The translations under genes and the position numbers were made by a program. The notes beneath the pieces are model-generated. The model was not told the DNA's origin and searched no databases. It saw only the letters and a list, made by a program, of their open reading frames with translations. This document shows positions 2,335 to 60,696 of a DNA stretch of 64,000 nucleotides, piece by piece. The stretch is from Desulfogranum japonicum DSM 18378. GTDB taxonomy: Bacteria; Desulfobacterota; Desulfobulbia; Desulfobulbales; Desulfobulbaceae. The stretch is taken from NCBI RefSeq assembly GCF_000429945.1, contig NZ_AUCV01000003.1, positions 1 to 64,000 of the forward strand, written 5' to 3'. Every line of letters starts with the position of its first letter. Position 1 is the first letter of the stretch.

Positions 2335-2485
2335 GCAAATATGGTGCTCCCGTGATTACTTACGGCTTGCGTATGGGGCAATAATATGCTGCGCCAGCCT
2401 GCTTACGAAAACCTCAGGATCCCTGTAAGGCGCTGTAAATACAGGAGAGTTGCCATGTTTAGTCACTTGCCCCTGAGTGGTTACC
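2335..2485. repeat. Copy of the 155-bp GTAACT-type dispersed repeat (diverged)
   Basis: Shares with 26401-26555 and 59142-59298 the succession CTTACG..TGCGTAT, ATATGCTGCGCCAGCCTG, CTCAGG..CCCTGTAA, GCTGTAAATACAGG and the end GCCCCTGAGTGGTTACC. It is the most diverged of three near-complete copies and fills most of the space between the deacetylase and the next gene. Confidence 0.6.
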
Positions 2486-2569: not shown

Positions 2570-2962
2570 ATGCTGTATATACCCGAGGCCTCAGCAGATA
2601 TTGAGAATACCGCTACTTGGGCAAAATACCACAAACAGCTCTGTCAACACTGTGATGCCTCCTGTTGCAGTCTGCCCGTAGAGGTTAAGGCCACAGATCT
2701 TATTCGAATGGGCTTGATGGATGAATTCGAACTGGAGGAGAATCTGAAATTCATTGCAAGGCGATTGATGAAACAGCGATTGGTTGAACATTTTCATTCC
2801 AGATCGGCAACTTTCATTCTTGCCAGAATGGCAAACGGCGATTGCATTTTTCTGGATAGCCACAGTAGACGCTGCACCATGTATGACAAACGGCCCGATA
2901 CCTGCCGCAATCACCCGAAGATCGGGCCCCGCTCAGGTTATTGCGCTTTTTCCAGAAAGTAA
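2570..2962 (+). CDS. YkgJ-family cysteine-cluster protein
   Basis: A 130-residue cytoplasmic protein with the YkgJ/CxxxCxxCC cluster pattern: CQHCDASCC near residues 19-27, then GDCIFLD, RRCTMYDKRPDTCRNHP and a last Cys in GYCAF. The arrangement is thought to bind a zinc or iron-sulfur centre; no enzymatic role is established for the family. The start is the ATG at 2570, preceded by AGAGGAG at 8-bp spacing, which decides it over the in-frame ATG at 2531. It stands alone between repeat sequence and a broken membrane gene. Confidence 0.8.
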   Translation: MLYIPEASADIENTATWAKYHKQLCQHCDASCCSLPVEVKATDLIRMGLMDEFELEENLKFIARRLMKQRLVEHFHSRSATFILARMANGDCIFLDSHSRRCTMYDKRPDTCRNHPKIGPRSGYCAFSRK

Positions 2963-3027
2963 CCTGTTACATACACGGGAAACTCCCGAGCTTATTCGTG
3001 TCCTCTAGGAGTAGTTGCAATACAATT

Positions 3028-4640: not shown

Positions 4641-4806
4641 TTAGGGTCGCGGAAAATAACACATATCCAAAAAATGCTAGGATATCGGTTGAGTAACCTC
4701 GTCGCATCAATGGCTCCATACTGGCCGTATCGAGGGATTGATGCAACGACGTTACCGAGTTGAGAGACAAGCTAGATTGGATAGTTTGTTTTTTCCGTGA
4801 CCCTTA
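4641..4806. repeat. Family A inverted-repeat element, copy 1 (166 bp)
   Basis: Bounded by TTAGGGTCGCGGAAAATAAC and, inverted, TTTTTTCCGTGACCCTTAA, with an inner hairpin (arms near 4692-4711 and 4734-4755). A second full copy lies at 45886-46054 in the opposite orientation and a deleted copy at 11795-11887. It lies immediately after the beta-propeller gene. Confidence 0.8.
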
Positions 4807-4890
4807 ACTGTTTTTAATTGAAAAAGCGGCTTTCTGGGCAGGTCCGAACAGGGATTTTGCCTGATAACATCCCACACAATACGATTGATT

Positions 4891-12015: not shown

Positions 12016-12108
12016 TGTAACTGCTCACACTGCTCCTTGTTTTTCCGTAAGCAGTTACAAATACTGGGGAAGTTGTCAAGTTTAATGATTTTATCTCTGG
12101 GTAGTTTT
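12016..12108. repeat. GTAACT-type repeat, partial copy
   Basis: Starts GTAACTGCTCAC, contains AGCAGTTACAAATACTGGGG and ends near CTCTGGGTAGTTTT. It corresponds to the right-hand module of 59142-59298 plus its left end. It lies just before the iorA-like gene. The rest of 11591-12147 shows no gene. Confidence 0.55.
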
Positions 12109-18027: not shown

Positions 18028-18164
18028 TCAATGCATTATTCACAAGGTGAGTCCTGTTAGAGACCATCTGATTCATAAAAAAGTGGTTCCAAACCAGGCG
18101 CCATTTTTTGATTTTTTACTGGTAGATTTACGCTTTAGCTGTATTTATTCTGGTTTAGGGGATT

Positions 18165-18285
18165 GGTTGTGAAACATACAATCAGTCCCCTGGCCTTTTG
18201 CCATACTATGGATTCCTCCTCTGCAGCAACTTTGTTGTAATCAGTCTGGTGGGGTGCGCCGTGCGCACCACCAATCATGAATTTA
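18165..18285 (+). repeat. Direct repeat copy 1 with REP-like hairpin
   Basis: About 115 bp beginning TGAAACATACAATCAGTCCC and ending with the palindrome GGTGCGC-CGT-GCGCACC (18253-18269) and CACCAATCA. It recurs in the same orientation at 19488-19605, so the two copies flank the acidic-protein gene at 18744. The remainder of 18028-18520 shows no gene. Confidence 0.75.
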
Positions 18286-19172: not shown

Positions 19173-19186
19173 GTTATCTTTTGGCG

Positions 19187-19268
19187 TAACTACTAACACA
19201 GGGAAGACGGACAAGCTTGAATATCTCCCATATTTATAACTGGTTACAGGTGCGCTGTGAGCAGTTAC
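19187..19268. repeat. Short (~60 bp) GTAACT-type repeat module, copy 1
   Basis: GTAACTACTAACACAGGGAA, ACAAGCTTGAA.ATCTCCC, ATATTTATAACTGGTTACAG. It matches 31839-31898 almost throughout and equals, inverted, the right-hand module of the 155-bp repeats. A further AGCAGTTACC follows at 19260-19268. Confidence 0.7.
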
Positions 19269-19487
19269 CTTTTGGCTTGGATCAAAACTAAAGTGTTCCA
19301 AGGAGTGCTGTAACCTTCCCGTTGGTTAATACTTTCCGACAGTGTTCACTGGTCTACTCATCAATTCCTCCCCTTCAATCATATTTTTTTCTTTATGCTC
19401 TCTTGGTTGTTCATCAGGTGGTGTAGTGCTCACGATGAGCGTAAGGTGCCCGTGTTTATTGCTCTGTTGTGGTGGCTTCGTGGTATT

Positions 19488-19605
19488 GGCGGTGAAAAAT
19501 ACAATCAGTCCCCTGGCTCTTCCTGTCTATGCAATCTCCCCCCGTAACAGTTTTGTTGCTATCAGCTTGGTAGGGTGCGCCGTGCGCACCATCAATCAAT
19601 CTTTG
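19488..19605 (+). repeat. Direct repeat copy 2 with REP-like hairpin
   Basis: Same unit as 18165-18285: GTGAAAAATACAATCAGTCC at the start and the palindrome GGTGCGC-CGT-GCGCACC at 19574-19590, then ATCAATCA. A related palindrome (GGTGCGT-CAC-ACGCACC, offset by one) occurs at 59392-59408. No gene is seen in 19269-19825 besides repeats. Confidence 0.75.
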
Positions 19606-26400: not shown

Positions 26401-26555
26401 GTAACTGGCCACAGTGCACCTGATCTGTCCGCGATCAGTCTGGCTTACGTATGACCCAATATGCCGGTCTGGTTGTGAAAACTTCAGGCACGCTGCAACG
26501 AGTTACAATTATAGGGGAATTGTTAGTCTCGGGCATTTCCCCTATGAGGATTTAC
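26401..26555. repeat. GTAACT-type 155-bp dispersed repeat, near-complete copy
   Basis: GTAACTGGCCACAGTGCACC, TCCGCGATCAGTCTGGCTTA, CGTATGACCCAATATG, CTTCAGGCACGCTGCAA, CGAGTTACAATTATAGGGG and the end TTTCCCCTATGAGGATTTACC. It aligns over its length with 59142-59298. It lies 125 bp upstream of napM, so it may affect nap transcription. Confidence 0.75.
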
Positions 26556-26994: not shown

Positions 26995-27163
26995 GTAACT
27001 GATCACAGGTACTCCGCGAAGTCTCCCGCTGGTCGTTTATCTCTTTGCACGATCGCGGTTTCTCGCATAGATTGCCTAGCGGAGTCTCCGCTTACCTGGA
27101 GTCTCCGCTTACCAGCAAAAAACCGCGTTTGCCAAAATCTGAAGCACCTGTGACCAAGTTACC
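26995..27163. repeat. Family E inverted-repeat element, copy 1
   Basis: Ends are GTAACTGATCACAGGTACT and, inverted, GTAACTTGGTCACAGGTGC. The inside holds CTGGTCGTTTATCTCTTTG and CGGAGTCTCCGCTTACC, the latter partly doubled. A full copy in the opposite orientation is at 44106-44256 and a shorter one at 34638-34744. The rest of 26556-27300 shows no gene. Confidence 0.75.
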
Positions 27164-27300
27164 ATAATACGGAAGACATGACCACCATGGGTGGCACAAC
27201 TAAAGCACTTTGCAGGACTGACTGAAAAGACGCATGGCAAGTCTGATTCATGGTCGGTGATGTGAGGCGTTTCATCAGAAGAGTTTCAAGAGGTATTTTT

Positions 27301-29118: not shown

Positions 29119-29119
29119 C

Positions 29120-29168
29120 GATCAGCCTGGTTACGTATCACATAATACGCTGCGTCAGGTCTGCTAGC
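29120..29168. repeat. Fragment of the GTAACT-type 155-bp repeat
   Basis: GATCAGCCTGGTTACGTATC, then ATAATACGCTGCGTCAG and CTGCTAGCGAAAA match the middle of 59142-59298. It directly follows the leuD-like stop. Confidence 0.6.
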
Positions 29169-29203
29169 GAAAAAAAAAGCTCCGTATTGTACAATGCGGA
29201 GCT
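29169..29203 (-). terminator. Terminator of the cold-shock gene
   Basis: On the minus strand AAGCTCCGCATTGTACAATA-CGGAGCTT pairs as a long stem followed by a run of T. It converges on the leuD-like gene. Confidence 0.8.
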
Positions 29204-31821: not shown

Positions 31822-31838
31822 TATGTCGTAGTCTATAG

Positions 31839-31898
31839 GTAACTACTCACAGAGGAGACAGGTAAGCTTGAAGATCTCCCATATTTGTAACCAGTTAC
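31839..31898. repeat. Short (~60 bp) GTAACT-type repeat module, copy 2
   Basis: GTAACTACTCACAGAGGAGA, GGTAAGCTTGAAGATCTCCC, ATATTTGTAACCAGTTAC. It is almost identical to 19187-19247 and, inverted, to the right-hand module of the 155-bp repeats. Confidence 0.7.
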
Positions 31899-31942
31899 GT
31901 CTATAGTTTTGTAATTGTTTATGGCGGAGAAGAAAGAAGTAT

Positions 31943-34109: not shown

Positions 34110-34637
34110 TTTTTCATTTCTCCTTTTTGCCTAAAATCAGAATAGTAGTGAAATTTTAGCTACATAACGGGAAGGTTGGTCGCGGAGCGCAACGGAGTCA
34201 GTGGAAACTTCTCGTTCTTCCGTGTTAGCAGTGTTCCCAAAGGATCAAAAGATTACAAAAAATCATGCGATGGCTATCAAAATAGCTGCGGTAGATTTTT
34301 CAGTATTTTCAATATGTAGCTGATAATACACTGGAGGTGCCTGTAATTCTACAGGTCTGTATATTTTCCCGGCTTGCTCAAGGATCTATGCACATCTCAA
34401 TCCCTGCATAAGCAGGCTACTTTTACCAAATGAAGACTGTAATACGCTAATATTTTATCAAAAATTATCGATTATTCTTGGTATGAGCTGATATGAACTT
34501 TGTATTTATCATTATGCCGGGAATGATCAACGGGGCTTCTATGCTTTTTCTATTGGAGGTGCGTAGCTGGTAATGTGTATACAGGCCTGGTGATGACAGC
34601 AAACACTGTTTATGAAATATCGTTGATCTTCAATACA
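34110..34637. other. Intergenic stretch without recognised gene
   Basis: It holds the presumed promoter of the FmdE-like gene at its left edge and a small palindrome (CTGTAATTCTACAG, 34342-34355). Nothing else was recognised. Confidence 0.35.
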
Positions 34638-34744
34638 GTAACTGGTCACGACTGCTTCGGCTTTGTGCAAGCGCAGTTTTATTTCGCCGGTTAGCGAAGA
34701 TTCCAGGTAAGCGGAGACTCCGTGAAGTATCTGTGATCAGGTAC
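34638..34744. repeat. Family E inverted-repeat element, short copy
   Basis: GTAACTGGTCACGACTGCTT at the left, and GAAGTATCTGTGATCAGGTAC at the right as its inverse. The inside keeps AGGTAAGCGGAGACTCC but lacks other parts of 26995-27163. Confidence 0.65.
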
Positions 34745-43969: not shown

Positions 43970-44105
43970 TTGACATCCGCCCGTCAAATAAAAAAGAGAA
44001 AACCTGGGGAGATGGAGAAAGATGTGGCTTCTCCTGTAATCGTTCACCATCTCTCGTTGTTCATCACGGGGGCTGCATCCTCTTGGTATCACTCGCCTCC
44101 GAACT

Positions 44106-44256
44106 GTAACTGATCACAGATGCTTCATATTTGGATAAACGCGATTTTGAGCAGGTAATCGTAGACTCCGTTATTCTATTTATGCTTGAAACCGCGGTCG
44201 TTCAAAGAGGTAAACGACCAGTGTGAGGTTCTGTGGAGTGTCTGTGACCAGCGGCT
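44106..44256. repeat. Family E inverted-repeat element, inverted copy
   Basis: GTAACTGATCACAGATGCTT at one end and CTGTGACCAGCGGCTA at the other. Read on the minus strand it follows 26995-27163: ACTGGTCGTTTACCTCTTTG, CCGCGGTTTCAAGCATA and ACGGAGTCTACGATTACC. The rest of 43837-44438 shows no gene. Confidence 0.75.
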
Positions 44257-45848: not shown

Positions 45849-45885
45849 GAGGTTTGGTCAGGAAGCTTTATTGCCACCTTGAGAG

Positions 45886-46054
45886 TTAAGGGTCACGGCA
45901 AAAATAAATTATCCAATCTTGCCTGTCTATCAACTCGGTAACGTCGTCGCGTCAATGGCTCAATACCACCCAGTATGGAACCATTGACGCGACGACGTTA
46001 CCAAACCGATATCCTACGCAATTTTTGGATAGTAATTATTTTCCGCGACTCTTA
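45886..46054. repeat. Family A inverted-repeat element, copy 2 (inverted)
   Basis: TTAAGGGTCACGG at the left and TTTTCCGCGACTCTTA at the right are the outer ends. Inside, two 22-bp arms at 45937-45958 and 45981-46002 are perfect inverted repeats around a 22-base loop. Read on the minus strand it aligns with 4641-4806 from end to end. It fills the gap between two convergent genes. Confidence 0.85.
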
Positions 46055-49028: not shown

Positions 49029-50288
49029 GGCAATGGGGGTCCTATCGTTCTTACAAAACCAAAAGACACAATATTTTGAGTTTCACAAAGTGTCGGCACT
49101 GGGGTTAGACCGTTCTCGGGATAAAAAAGAAGTTTCCCCTCCAGTCTTTTTTGATCGATTAAAAGGCCTTGGGCATTGTTAAAATATCGATCAATGTCAA
49201 TGCATTTGAGATAATTCCAAGCGCCACAGCAGGCACCACTCCTGTTGTCCAGTGAGGCCGAACAAAATTATGGATGATCTGGTGAACATCCAAAGTGCGC
49301 TGTAATCCATCCGTGGTTTTTGCGTAGGTATTGGTTCGCCTTCGAAATGCACTGTTCCGGCGGCGGATAGAAGCATTTTACGCCTCAAGGTGATTTGCGT
49401 TAATTTCAGAATCTTGACAGTCGGCTGTATCTGGGTGTTCACGCCATGGTGCATGGTATTTAGGACGCTTGCGGCCTTTCTTTTTCTGTTGGCTCCCCTT
49501 ATTTTTAACGCGAGCTTTGACACCACGTGGTAGTACTCGCGGTGGGCGTCCACGTTTGCCGGTTTCCAGTACCTCAGAACATATTTCAAAAAGTGCGTTC
49601 CCATATCGTCTTTCACCATCTGAAAAAAACGTAACGTCACCAGTGTTGTCAATAAAGTCACACATCTTTTCCATAACGGCTCTGAAGAGACTTTCATTTT
49701 TTTCTCCGCATTTTTGATCTACGATGAAACGACTGCTACGTTCTATGATCACGACTGTCCAGCCTTTAGAGGCAGACGGATCTGTTCGATTTCCCACAAT
49801 GGTGTAGAGTTCGTCACCTTCAAAGGTGAGGGAAATAAAATTGAAACAAAGTGAGTACAGCATCAAAGTAGATTTTTGTTCCGCAAATCGTCTCTCCCAA
49901 TTTGAAATCGTTTTTTTGTCAGCTCCAAGCACTCGCCCAGTAGCGCGTAGGGCAAGTCCCCCGCTGCGCATTTTTAATGCAAGGGCAACTTTGCTTATTG
50001 GAGACTTAAGGGACTCCATAGCGCTTCCGGCAGTTTCGGAAAAAATATTTGAACAATCATTGCATGACAAAAGGACACGCTCACCATTATGGATTGTCGT
50101 ATATTGCTTGCACACAGTGGAACGGGTTGACCTACATCTCGGGCAAGGGGGGCTTTTATTAATTTTCATGCAAGAGTTTTTAACTTCCTGGTGAGCTAAA
50201 CCCAAGAAATTAATTACGATAATGACACTTTGTGAAACTCAAAATATTGTGTCTTTGGGTTTTGCAAGAACGATAGGACCCCAGTGCC
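49029..50288 (-). mobile_element. IS1-like insertion sequence with ~65-bp inverted repeats, inactivated
   Basis: Near-identical inverted ends (49029-49094 and 50224-50288) begin GGCA.TGGGGTCCTATCG on the outside and continue through ACACAATATTTTGAGTTTC to CACAAAGTGTC. They enclose a transposase with an internal stop. The right end interrupts hsdM after SFT. Sequences outside the two ends (GTTGACC and GTAAAGCTT) do not match, so no target duplication is visible. GGCACTGGGG occurs once more just inside the left end, at 49095-49104. Confidence 0.8.
49159..50169 (-). pseudogene. IS1-like transposase, interrupted by an in-frame stop
   Basis: The frame starts MKINKSPPCPRCRS with a zinc-binding CPRC-x~24-CNDC, then a helix-turn-helix (LGADKKTISNWERRFAEQK). 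The catalytic part has FEGDELYTIVGNR (first Asp), VTFFSDGERRYG (second) and EINANHLEA (Glu region). A TAA at 49378-49380 stops it. The same frame then continues with NASIRRRNSAFRRRTNTYAK, TTDGLQRTLDVHQI and ends at 49159. A single base change restores the full protein of about 336 residues, so the loss is recent. Read-through cannot be excluded but is unlikely. Confidence 0.8.
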
Positions 50289-59109: not shown

Positions 59110-59141
59110 TTTTGTTAAACTCCGATACAGATTAATTCATG

Positions 59142-59298
59142 GTAACTGCTTACAGTGCACCTGATCTTTCCGCGATCAGCCTGGCTTACGTATGATCCAA
59201 TACGCTGCGTCAGCCTGATTGCTAAAATCTCAGGCACCCTGTAACCAGTTACAAATACAGGGGGGGCAAGTTTATTGATTTCCCCTATGAGTAGTTGC
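59142..59298. repeat. GTAACT-type 155-bp dispersed repeat, best-preserved copy
   Basis: Two modules. The left (59142-59252) runs from GTAACTGCTTACAGTGCACC through TCCGCGATCAGCCTGGC, TGCGTCAGCCTG and CAGGCACC to GTAACCAGTTAC. The right (to 59298) runs from AGTTACAAATACAGGGGGGG to CCCCTATGAGTAGTTGC. The right module occurs alone at 19187 and 31839 in inverted orientation. A GGTGCGT/ACGCACC palindrome follows at 59392-59408. Confidence 0.8.
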
Positions 59299-59409
59299 AA
59301 TGTATGTAAATAATTATGGACGATACAGGCAGAGAGTCGCTGCTTCTGCTTATTGTTCTCCTTGAGGCAGCCCAAAGACCTGAACTGGTAGGGTGCGTCA
59401 CACGCACCG

Positions 59410-60696
59410 TCACACTTTGGGTTCTATAATGGTAACCGTAGCTTTGTTACCGTTGTCGGTAGCAATGTTGTCATAGGGCCATCCCAGACGTTGAGTCAGT
59501 TGCTCTGTAAGTTTCAACCCCAATCCAAATCCCAGGTCTTCATCGGTAGCTGAGCCAGTAGGCTGGGTGTTTTGAATACATATCCTGTTTTCCTGCTGGT
59601 TGATGGTAACCGAGCCGCAATCAGTATGCTGCAGGGCATTACGGATCAGGTTGCTGAGCACAATTCTGGCCACTGGTTCGGGGATATTGACGGTGTAAGC
59701 GCTTGTCTGTACCTGGATCGAGACCTCTTTACCCTTGCTGAGATACAATAACTCATCGGTGAGTTCGCTTATGAGCACATCAAGCTGTACAGCATGCATG
59801 GATGGCATGTTGCCTTCATTACGGCTGAGCCAGAGCAGGGTTTCTGTCATGTACTTCATATTCAGGCTTGCTCTGTCAATCCGTTCTATGACCTGTTGCT
59901 GTTTAGCGGTTTTCTTCTCTTCCGGCAGTTGTTGCAGTCTGGCCAGTAACTCCACATTATTGCGAATTACACTTATCGGTGTCCGCAATTCATGGCTGGC
60001 ATGGCGAAGAAATCGGTGTTCCCGGTCCAACCCCTCCTGAACAGATTTCAAGGAGGTTCGAATCAGCTCTGCCAGTGCATTGAGTTCCGGGTATAGAAAA
60101 TCCGGAGGCTGGTTCTGCAGAGTTTTTTCATCCAGTGACCTGGCCCAGTTTCCCAGGTTCGATACAGTTTTACTTACCTGGCGCATCATTACCCGCACTA
60201 TCATGCCTACAACCAGAGCTGCGGTCAGGGTGATGAAGAGCAGGTTGCGCAGGCTTTCTTTGGCATTCCTGCCAATGAGAGGAATACTCGAATGCCGGCT
60301 TGCCTGCTTGGCGACATAGAGAACCGTGTCTCCCTGCTGATAACGAAGGGCAAAAGTGAGTACTTCTGGTGGATGCAGGAAAGTGGATTTATCCTGCTTG
60401 ATCAATCTTGCTTCTCCGACAGGTCCCTCGGGTAGTTGTGTGCGTATGTCTTCGGGCATATCTGCCCAGCTTGATGCCAGATAGCATTCCCAGAAATATA
60501 CCAGTGGTTTTCTGTCTTTTTCAGGAGTGTGCTGTAAATAGGCGTCTGCTGTTTTGTACATATCAGACGCCACAATCGAATCCATCCCCATCATGTAGTA
60601 GCGGGCACTCAGCATGGCAAAACCAAGGACCAGCAAAGCTGTCAGCGAGAGAAAAATAGCGCTGACATAGAGTTTCAGGCTGATTTGACGTTTCAT
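59410..60696 (-). CDS. Sensor histidine kinase of the RND locus
   Basis: A 428-residue membrane kinase of QseC/PmrB size. It has two transmembrane helices (about 10-30 and 150-170) around a ~115-residue periplasmic sensor, a HAMP-like linker, HisKA with FLRHASHELRTPISVIRNN, and an ATPase with NLIRNALQHTD and DLGFGLGLKL. The G1 box is short and degenerate, but the G2 box is kept. It should phosphorylate the OmpR-type regulator encoded 67 bp upstream. The pump gene before that makes efflux control the likely output. Confidence 0.88.
   Translation of the reverse strand: MKRQISLKLYVSAIFLSLTALLVLGFAMLSARYYMMGMDSIVASDMYKTADAYLQHTPEKDRKPLVYFWECYLASSWADMPEDIRTQLPEGPVGEARLIKQDKSTFLHPPEVLTFALRYQQGDTVLYVAKQASRHSSIPLIGRNAKESLRNLLFITLTAALVVGMIVRVMMRQVSKTVSNLGNWARSLDEKTLQNQPPDFLYPELNALAELIRTSLKSVQEGLDREHRFLRHASHELRTPISVIRNNVELLARLQQLPEEKKTAKQQQVIERIDRASLNMKYMTETLLWLSRNEGNMPSMHAVQLDVLISELTDELLYLSKGKEVSIQVQTSAYTVNIPEPVARIVLSNLIRNALQHTDCGSVTINQQENRICIQNTQPTGSATDEDLGFGLGLKLTEQLTQRLGWPYDNIATDNGNKATVTIIEPKV

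Follow-up and report, generated by a model that had tools for sequence, protein, structure and literature searches.

How did a gene-less sequence of 157 bp come to be scattered, whole and in parts, through a bacterial genome? The window, that is, the whole 64,000-bp stretch analysed here, comprises bases 1-64000 of contig C3 in a genome of 5.80 Mb and 124 contigs. An earlier note on this DNA had read the repeats as modular, non-autonomous elements moved by a common transposase, and our analysis largely supports that reading. The repeats are mobile; the enzyme that moves them can probably be named, and we infer a role for a hairpin that one of their strands can form.

Copies, modules and target duplications

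The element at 59142-59298 consists of two overlapping modules, and complete, shortened and diverged relatives of it occur along the window.

59142-59298, minus strand: full element, 157 bp, with ends GTAACTGCTTACAG and GAGTAGTTGC
59142-59252, part of this element: module A (left, 111 bp), the hairpin
59241-59298, part of this element: module B (right), the tail
59134-59141: left target duplication AATTCATG, matching the right copy at 6 of 8 letters
59299-59306: right target duplication AATGTATG
26401-26555, minus strand: second full element, 54.5 bits on the minus strand, with an eroded duplication (5/8)
31839-31898, plus strand: stand-alone module B, 60 bp, with the perfect duplication GTCTATAG at 31831-31838 and 31899-31906
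19186-19268, plus strand: full element minus most of the hairpin, 83 bp, with the perfect duplication CTTTTGGC
12017-12108, minus strand: full element minus most of the hairpin, 92 bp, with the duplication ATGAAAGT/ATGAAATT (7/8)
2350-2484, minus strand: diverged copy without the outer hairpin end, covering profile positions 29-157
29119-29173, minus strand: internal hairpin fragment without ends
2958-3018, minus strand: degenerate module B
27018-27161 (approximate extent 26996-27172), minus strand: copy of subfamily CD
44106-44232 (approximate extent 44061-44251), plus strand: copy of subfamily CD
34638-34744 (approximate extent 34617-34740), plus strand: weak copy of subfamily CD (18.9 bits, E 0.011)

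Modules A and B overlap at 59241-59252, where they have the sequence GTAACCAGTTAC in common; in this copy it is a perfect palindrome, and the 5′ foot of the hairpin lies there. The full units that the earlier note had placed at 59142 and 26401, its diverged copy near 2335 and its solitary right module at 31839 were all recovered. Both of its fragments, at 12016 and 29120, are present, the former being more exactly a full unit whose left module is shortened. The supposed right module alone at 19187 is in fact a full unit from which most of the left module has been deleted. We would guess that the "family E" of that note is the related subfamily CD.

Other repeated sequences were also seen in the window. 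The motif CGGAGTCTCCGCTTACC lies inside CD-type copies at 27080-27120 and 34682-34722. A second dispersed repeat, at least about 115 bp long, is found at 4643-4810 and 45884-46052 and has about 30 copies in a 1.264-Mb sample of the genome. Two 59-bp inverted repeats, at 49036-49094 and 50224-50282, are 97% complementary with 1129 bp between them and may bound a separate insertion sequence. The palindrome GGTGCGCCGTGCGCACC is contained in two direct repeats 1.3 kb apart, at 18159-18277 and 19482-19598, and a related stretch lies at 59386-59412.

The earlier note had proposed a count of copies across the genome, and the numbers found were high. A DNA search matched the unit at 40 or more places in the genome, and the end motif GTAACTRSTYACAG, allowing one mismatch, had 459 genome-wide matches against 27 for the reversed pattern. 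A profile search of the 1.264-Mb sample, 1.2 Mb of it beyond the window, located 74 places. Of these, 37 were full units and 15 were fragments; the rest were modules standing alone, the left one at 10 places and the right one at 12. Because an iterated CD profile merged with AB, chains were counted in the same sample with separate module profiles; this gave 119 chains (42 AB, 27 C, 19 A, 15 B, 9 CD and 3 D; AD, ABD, B'B and C'AB were each seen once, C'AB perhaps by accident).

Do the copies bear the marks of transposition? First, the 8-bp flanks of 20 of the 37 full units match at two mismatches or fewer, as do 1.5% of mismatched pairings, and perfect 8-bp duplications border 1 of the 10 stand-alone left modules and 3 of the 12 stand-alone right modules. 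Second, a de novo search that used only the motif found, among 1171 inverted end pairs tested, 30 with an 8-bp duplication (at most one mismatch, only this length being scored), against 1.4 with shuffled flanks. The sizes of these pairs are mainly 60-61 bp, corresponding to the right module, and 149-162 bp, corresponding to the full unit; the remainder are a solitary left module of 111 bp, several units that have been shortened and a few seemingly accidental pairs. Third, uninterrupted sites were found among the repeats of the same genome and are thus paralogous. In this test the flanks of an element were joined, one copy of the duplication was removed and the junction was aligned to repeats elsewhere in the genome. 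The element at C12:76664-76822 is inserted 24 bp inside another dispersed repeat, and 30 rows span its join at 70-81% identity, including window positions 4664-4777 and 45916-46031; the second dispersed repeat described above was the target for one element. The same pattern was seen for L096:6540-6714 and for two units of genome G004 (L238:1184 and L250:8187), and several further rows of the junction table, which were self-overlaps, were disregarded.

The repeat thus has the features of a miniature inverted-repeat transposable element (MITE): it is 157 bp long, gene-less and present in high copy number, with inverted ends, an 8-bp target duplication and uninterrupted, paralogous sites. Non-autonomous mobility, as the earlier note had proposed, is supported by the duplications, copy number and uninterrupted sites, and so is its view that the modules move both alone and combined. 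The 157-bp unit and the 60-bp right module are shown to be mobile as units; for the 111-bp left module the evidence is thinner, and includes, besides the one perfectly flanked copy, a lone left module in genome G003 (L044) whose duplication is perfect by eye.

A shared layout and a conserved hairpin

Is the element peculiar to this genome? In stretches picked for holding end motifs, 21 duplicated pairs were found in 376 kb of G016, a genome of another genus (0.95 expected from the control), and 41 in 370 kb of G004, a genome of the same genus (1.9 in the control). Sizes of 143-190 bp account for all 21 pairs of G016 and for 31 of the 41 of G004; the remaining ten of G004 fall at 62-134 bp or at 192-384 bp. 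The common layout is end 1, a palindrome of about 108 bp, end 2, a tail of about 47 bp and end 3. Units of about 183 bp have an extra insert in the hairpin loop, which in G016, G004 and G010 is about 25 bp long and resembles CGGAGTCTCCGCTTACC, the motif inside CD-type copies; loop insertions are thus tolerated and recurrent. Contigs C3, C36 and C41 of G004 (L238-L247) are very dense in elements, with 146 exact end motifs in a partial genome of 1.3 Mb. Loci in G010, G079 and G359 share the layout, with duplications that match, by eye, at 7 or 8 of 8 bases in 14 of 22 cases; two loci outside the order (L263 and L266) and two from other families within it (L264 and L273) have perfect ones, again by eye. 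Altogether, 93 of 95 units were kept and, as L058 and L224 are the same element, 92 distinct duplicated units were gathered from nine genomes.

We aligned 31 of these 92 units and the window copy over their full length (alignment A1). Because the sequences are related, shuffles overstate significance; controls in which the pairing was slid by 1-3 columns preserve the relatedness. Across 51 palindrome pairs, 68.3% of cells were standard pairs, against 28-38% in slid controls, and both sides had changed in 187 cells, against 36-90. Across 40 stem pairs on the strand that reads tail first, 82.8% of cells were paired (33-44% in slid controls), 194 cells had changed on both sides (23-75) and compensatory changes were present in 31 of the 40 pairs. 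The fold recurs in 23 further rows from 16 genomes outside the building of the model, where 87.0% of cells were paired against 30-39% when slid and 199 cells were double-changed against 24-43; these rows, the 23 of 36 that remained when the best strand and one place per locus were taken, were found with the covariance model and their alignment was fitted to it. The minus strand of the window copy is the tail-first strand and carries the conserved fold. This copy folds below shuffles by 6.7 SD (plus strand) and 5.9 SD (minus strand), and it scores 88.3 bits on the minus and 44.2 bits on the plus strand against the covariance model, of which it is a training sequence.

As judged from these alignments, the hairpin is shown to have been maintained by compensatory evolution while its letters diverged greatly. 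The conserved fold is a new finding: Rfam 15 gave no match at the gathering threshold (5 sources) or at E values up to 1 (12 sources), and our literature search, within its scope and terms, returned no account of these elements.

Within families, double changes are two- to three-fold above the expectation from independence (30 vs 14.9; 5 vs 1.8), which makes some mutational correction of the palindrome possible. The repeats might accordingly be ordinary MITEs that arose by internal deletion from IS66 elements, with a functionless palindrome whose register is maintained as template switching corrects quasi-palindromes, and the ends and duplication size do fit IS66 elements. We consider this unlikely, on account of recurrent mismatches in the stem, of the wobble pairs and of the comparison with IS66 sequences, all described below.

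With the covariance model built from the hairpin and a threshold of E up to 1e-5, the search matched 106 of 146 genomes from the order, 48 of 54 genera and, among the matches listed, at least 14 families. In a sample of 198 genomes of the phylum, nine had matches, five of them outside the order; the filters used in both searches lose weak matches. These elements form a superfamily, an old family of tiny gene-less mobile elements that is common among sulphate reducers and related bacteria and may have spread through the order either by descent or by transfer.

Which strand may fold, and in what capacity

Does one strand of the hairpin fold in preference? Two features of the stem bear on this question. 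First, at columns 24-25/87-88 the tail-first strand has a tandem G.A then A.G in 19 of 32 training rows and 17 of 23 further rows, where the opposite strand would read U.C and C.U. Tandem mismatches of this kind can be stable both in RNA and in DNA. Template-switch correction should erase mismatches, but these tandem pairs recur across families and genera. Second, stem cells of the tail-first strand contain 125 G.U against 62 A.C, and, of the 34 columns without a tie, 26 have more G.U than A.C (0.0015 by a one-sided sign test, the columns not being fully independent). Column 33/79 goes against the wobble argument, since in 25 of 32 rows the tail-first strand has a mismatched A.C there. Single-sided changes in decayed copies of family AB, the one family from which this symmetry is known, are 66 G.U and 66 A.C, and those on the tail-first strand of a second, smaller family, G4a, are 10 G.U and 20 A.C, so that in neither family is the G.U excess produced by mutation alone. 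The absence of the wobble bias from decayed AB copies also argues against template switching, and the G.U excess agrees with selection in lineages that move. Together, the tandem G.A mismatches and the G.U excess favour one strand, acting as folded RNA or as single-stranded DNA.

Might the fold instead act as RNA in host transcripts, in mRNA stability or termination, as for ERIC and NEMIS/Correia? MITE transcripts that fold and affect adjacent mRNAs are described in the available part of PMC2229807, and all 123 classifiable copies in three genomes were scored intergenic. This count is soft, as a copy that breaks a reading frame was also scored intergenic by the simple gene caller used (coding fraction 0.77-0.78); 135 copies were examined, 12 of them at stretch edges, the set holding 65 hand-picked places, one strand each, from 109 strand-wise rows with some weak ones omitted, and the first 70 of 246 rows. 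An effect through one strand should bias orientation, but in tandem gene gaps 25 copies run with the genes and 37 against them (raw counts). We therefore rejected host-gene regulation through orientation; the gaps give no support to a one-strand role in host transcripts, and we think a function of that kind improbable. A replication-strand bias was rejected as well, since copies in the complete genome G039 are listed, by eye, on both strands in both halves.

The arms might also be long terminal inverted repeats that a transposase reads as duplex, covarying to fit the same protein. All three ends do resemble IS ends over their outer 14 bp. Most duplicated units, however, have their duplications next to ends 1 and 3, which leaves the inner arm (end 2) internal; at the tandem mismatch AGAT is commonly found in both arms of one strand, unlike a duplex inverted repeat; and the two ends of the IS in genome G072 agree over about 18 bp. 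We regard this explanation as very unlikely. The reading that we prefer is that the tail-first strand would act, as folded RNA or single-stranded DNA, in the propagation of the element itself and not in the regulation of host genes.

The candidate transposase and related elements

Which enzyme could move these elements? The earlier note had called for a transposase gene with GTAACT-type ends, and an IS66-family gene fragment in the same genome has the end GTAACTGATCACAG, which fits the repeat ends. Pfam assigns the fragment to IS66, and IS66 is also its best NCBIfam match, below the whole-protein cut-off because the gene is a fragment. IS66 remnants (PF03050) were detected in this genome, where contigs C59 and C78 each end inside an IS66 gene with the outer end GTAACTGATCACAGGGGGC; IS66 TnpB (PF05717) had no match there, in agreement with the single-gene ISBst12 group. 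Complete single-gene IS66 elements of 1545-1546 bp, well preserved, with ends GTAACTAATCACAGGG and perfect 8-bp duplications, are present in G072 and G068, of the same family (L079, L080, L082 and L084). In G079, a complete single-gene IS66 element of 1692 bp has GTAACTACTCAC ends, which the repeats there match only loosely, and the complete IS66 element of G016, a genome rich in fresh copies, has different ends, GTAAGCGCCACG.

IS66 genes (PF03050) do not track the repeats: they were found in 29 of 106 hairpin carriers and 15 of 40 non-carriers, counts that were crossed by hand, with both 146-genome sets taken as identical, and from which multi-copy genes may drop out in fragmented assemblies. 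We thus rejected the idea that the presence of IS66 in a genome predicts the repeats. The common transposase proposed earlier accordingly gains a matching end and no positive association, and remains plausible as judged from the ends; most likely an IS66-family transposase of the ISBst12 type moves the elements in trans.

A bacterial MITE is usually regarded as the product of deletion within a single IS. Nine consensus or example sequences of the repeat and four IS66 sequences (two complete, two partial) have only their terminal 14-26 bp in common, besides scattered weak matches of 19-29 bp, and no longer common interior was found among them. We rejected an internal-deletion origin from IS66, with the proviso that the IS of the home genome is known as a fragment, and the same comparison weighs against MITEs kept in register by template switching.

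Our best explanation, which we consider probable, is that each repeat is a non-autonomous transposon some 157 bp long, with GTAAC-type ends and an 8-bp duplication, most likely moved by an IS66/ISBst12 enzyme, with the folded tail-first strand taking part in its propagation. Read tail first, the element presents an end of about 14 bp, a variable spacer of about 33 bp and a hairpin of about 108 nt, the 3′ foot of which serves as the second outer end. At the 5′ foot lies a third copy of the end, and this explains why either module by itself, the 111-bp hairpin or the 60-bp tail, can also be moved. More tentatively, and at somewhat less than even chances, we suggest that copying of the gene-less element by DDE-type transposases of the IS66 family requires folding of the tail-first strand, either as RNA or as single-stranded DNA.

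How does the element compare with known systems? To our knowledge, REP elements moved by TnpA-REP show no target duplication, and we rejected this mode of movement for a repeat with 8-bp duplications. Both are high-copy palindromes, and the available part of PMC8266576 describes strand-specific recognition of a folded single strand for REPs; unlike the repeat, whose duplications point to a DDE-type enzyme, REPs are processed there by HUH enzymes. ISDge4, of the ISBst12 group, is reported to be active, with ends GTAACTGCTCAGCA/GTGACTACTCAGCA and an 8-nt repeat (PMC12898284, as far as the available text goes). The repeat resembles this group in its GTAAC-type ends of about 14-18 bp and its 8-bp duplication, and differs in being gene-less, in lacking a longer common interior with the four IS compared and in its conserved hairpin. 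ERIC, NEMIS/Correia, RUP and YPAL, in the account available from PMC2229807, are likewise shorter than 200 bp, without a transposase gene and predicted to form a stable hairpin, and most of these stem-loop MITEs share inverted ends and target duplications with the repeat. The repeat is distinguished from them by its constant 8-bp duplication, by three ends including a shared internal one and by a fold kept through an order by compensatory change; it has no TA at its termini, as most of the MITE families listed there do and YPAL does not. TIMEs, Tn3-derived miniature elements that the title of PMC4133298 names as mosaic non-autonomous transposons, are set apart from the repeat, on the description available, by that derivation.

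One fold and one layout have thus persisted in at least 14 families of an order while the tail sequence turned over. Whether such a hairpin is a passive by-product of inverted repeats or is needed by the mobility machinery or the host is now directly testable, and the covariance model is a ready annotation probe. If our more tentative suggestion, that the tail-first strand must fold for copying, is true, these elements would represent an RNA- or hairpin-assisted parasitism of an ordinary IS enzyme, kept through the whole order.
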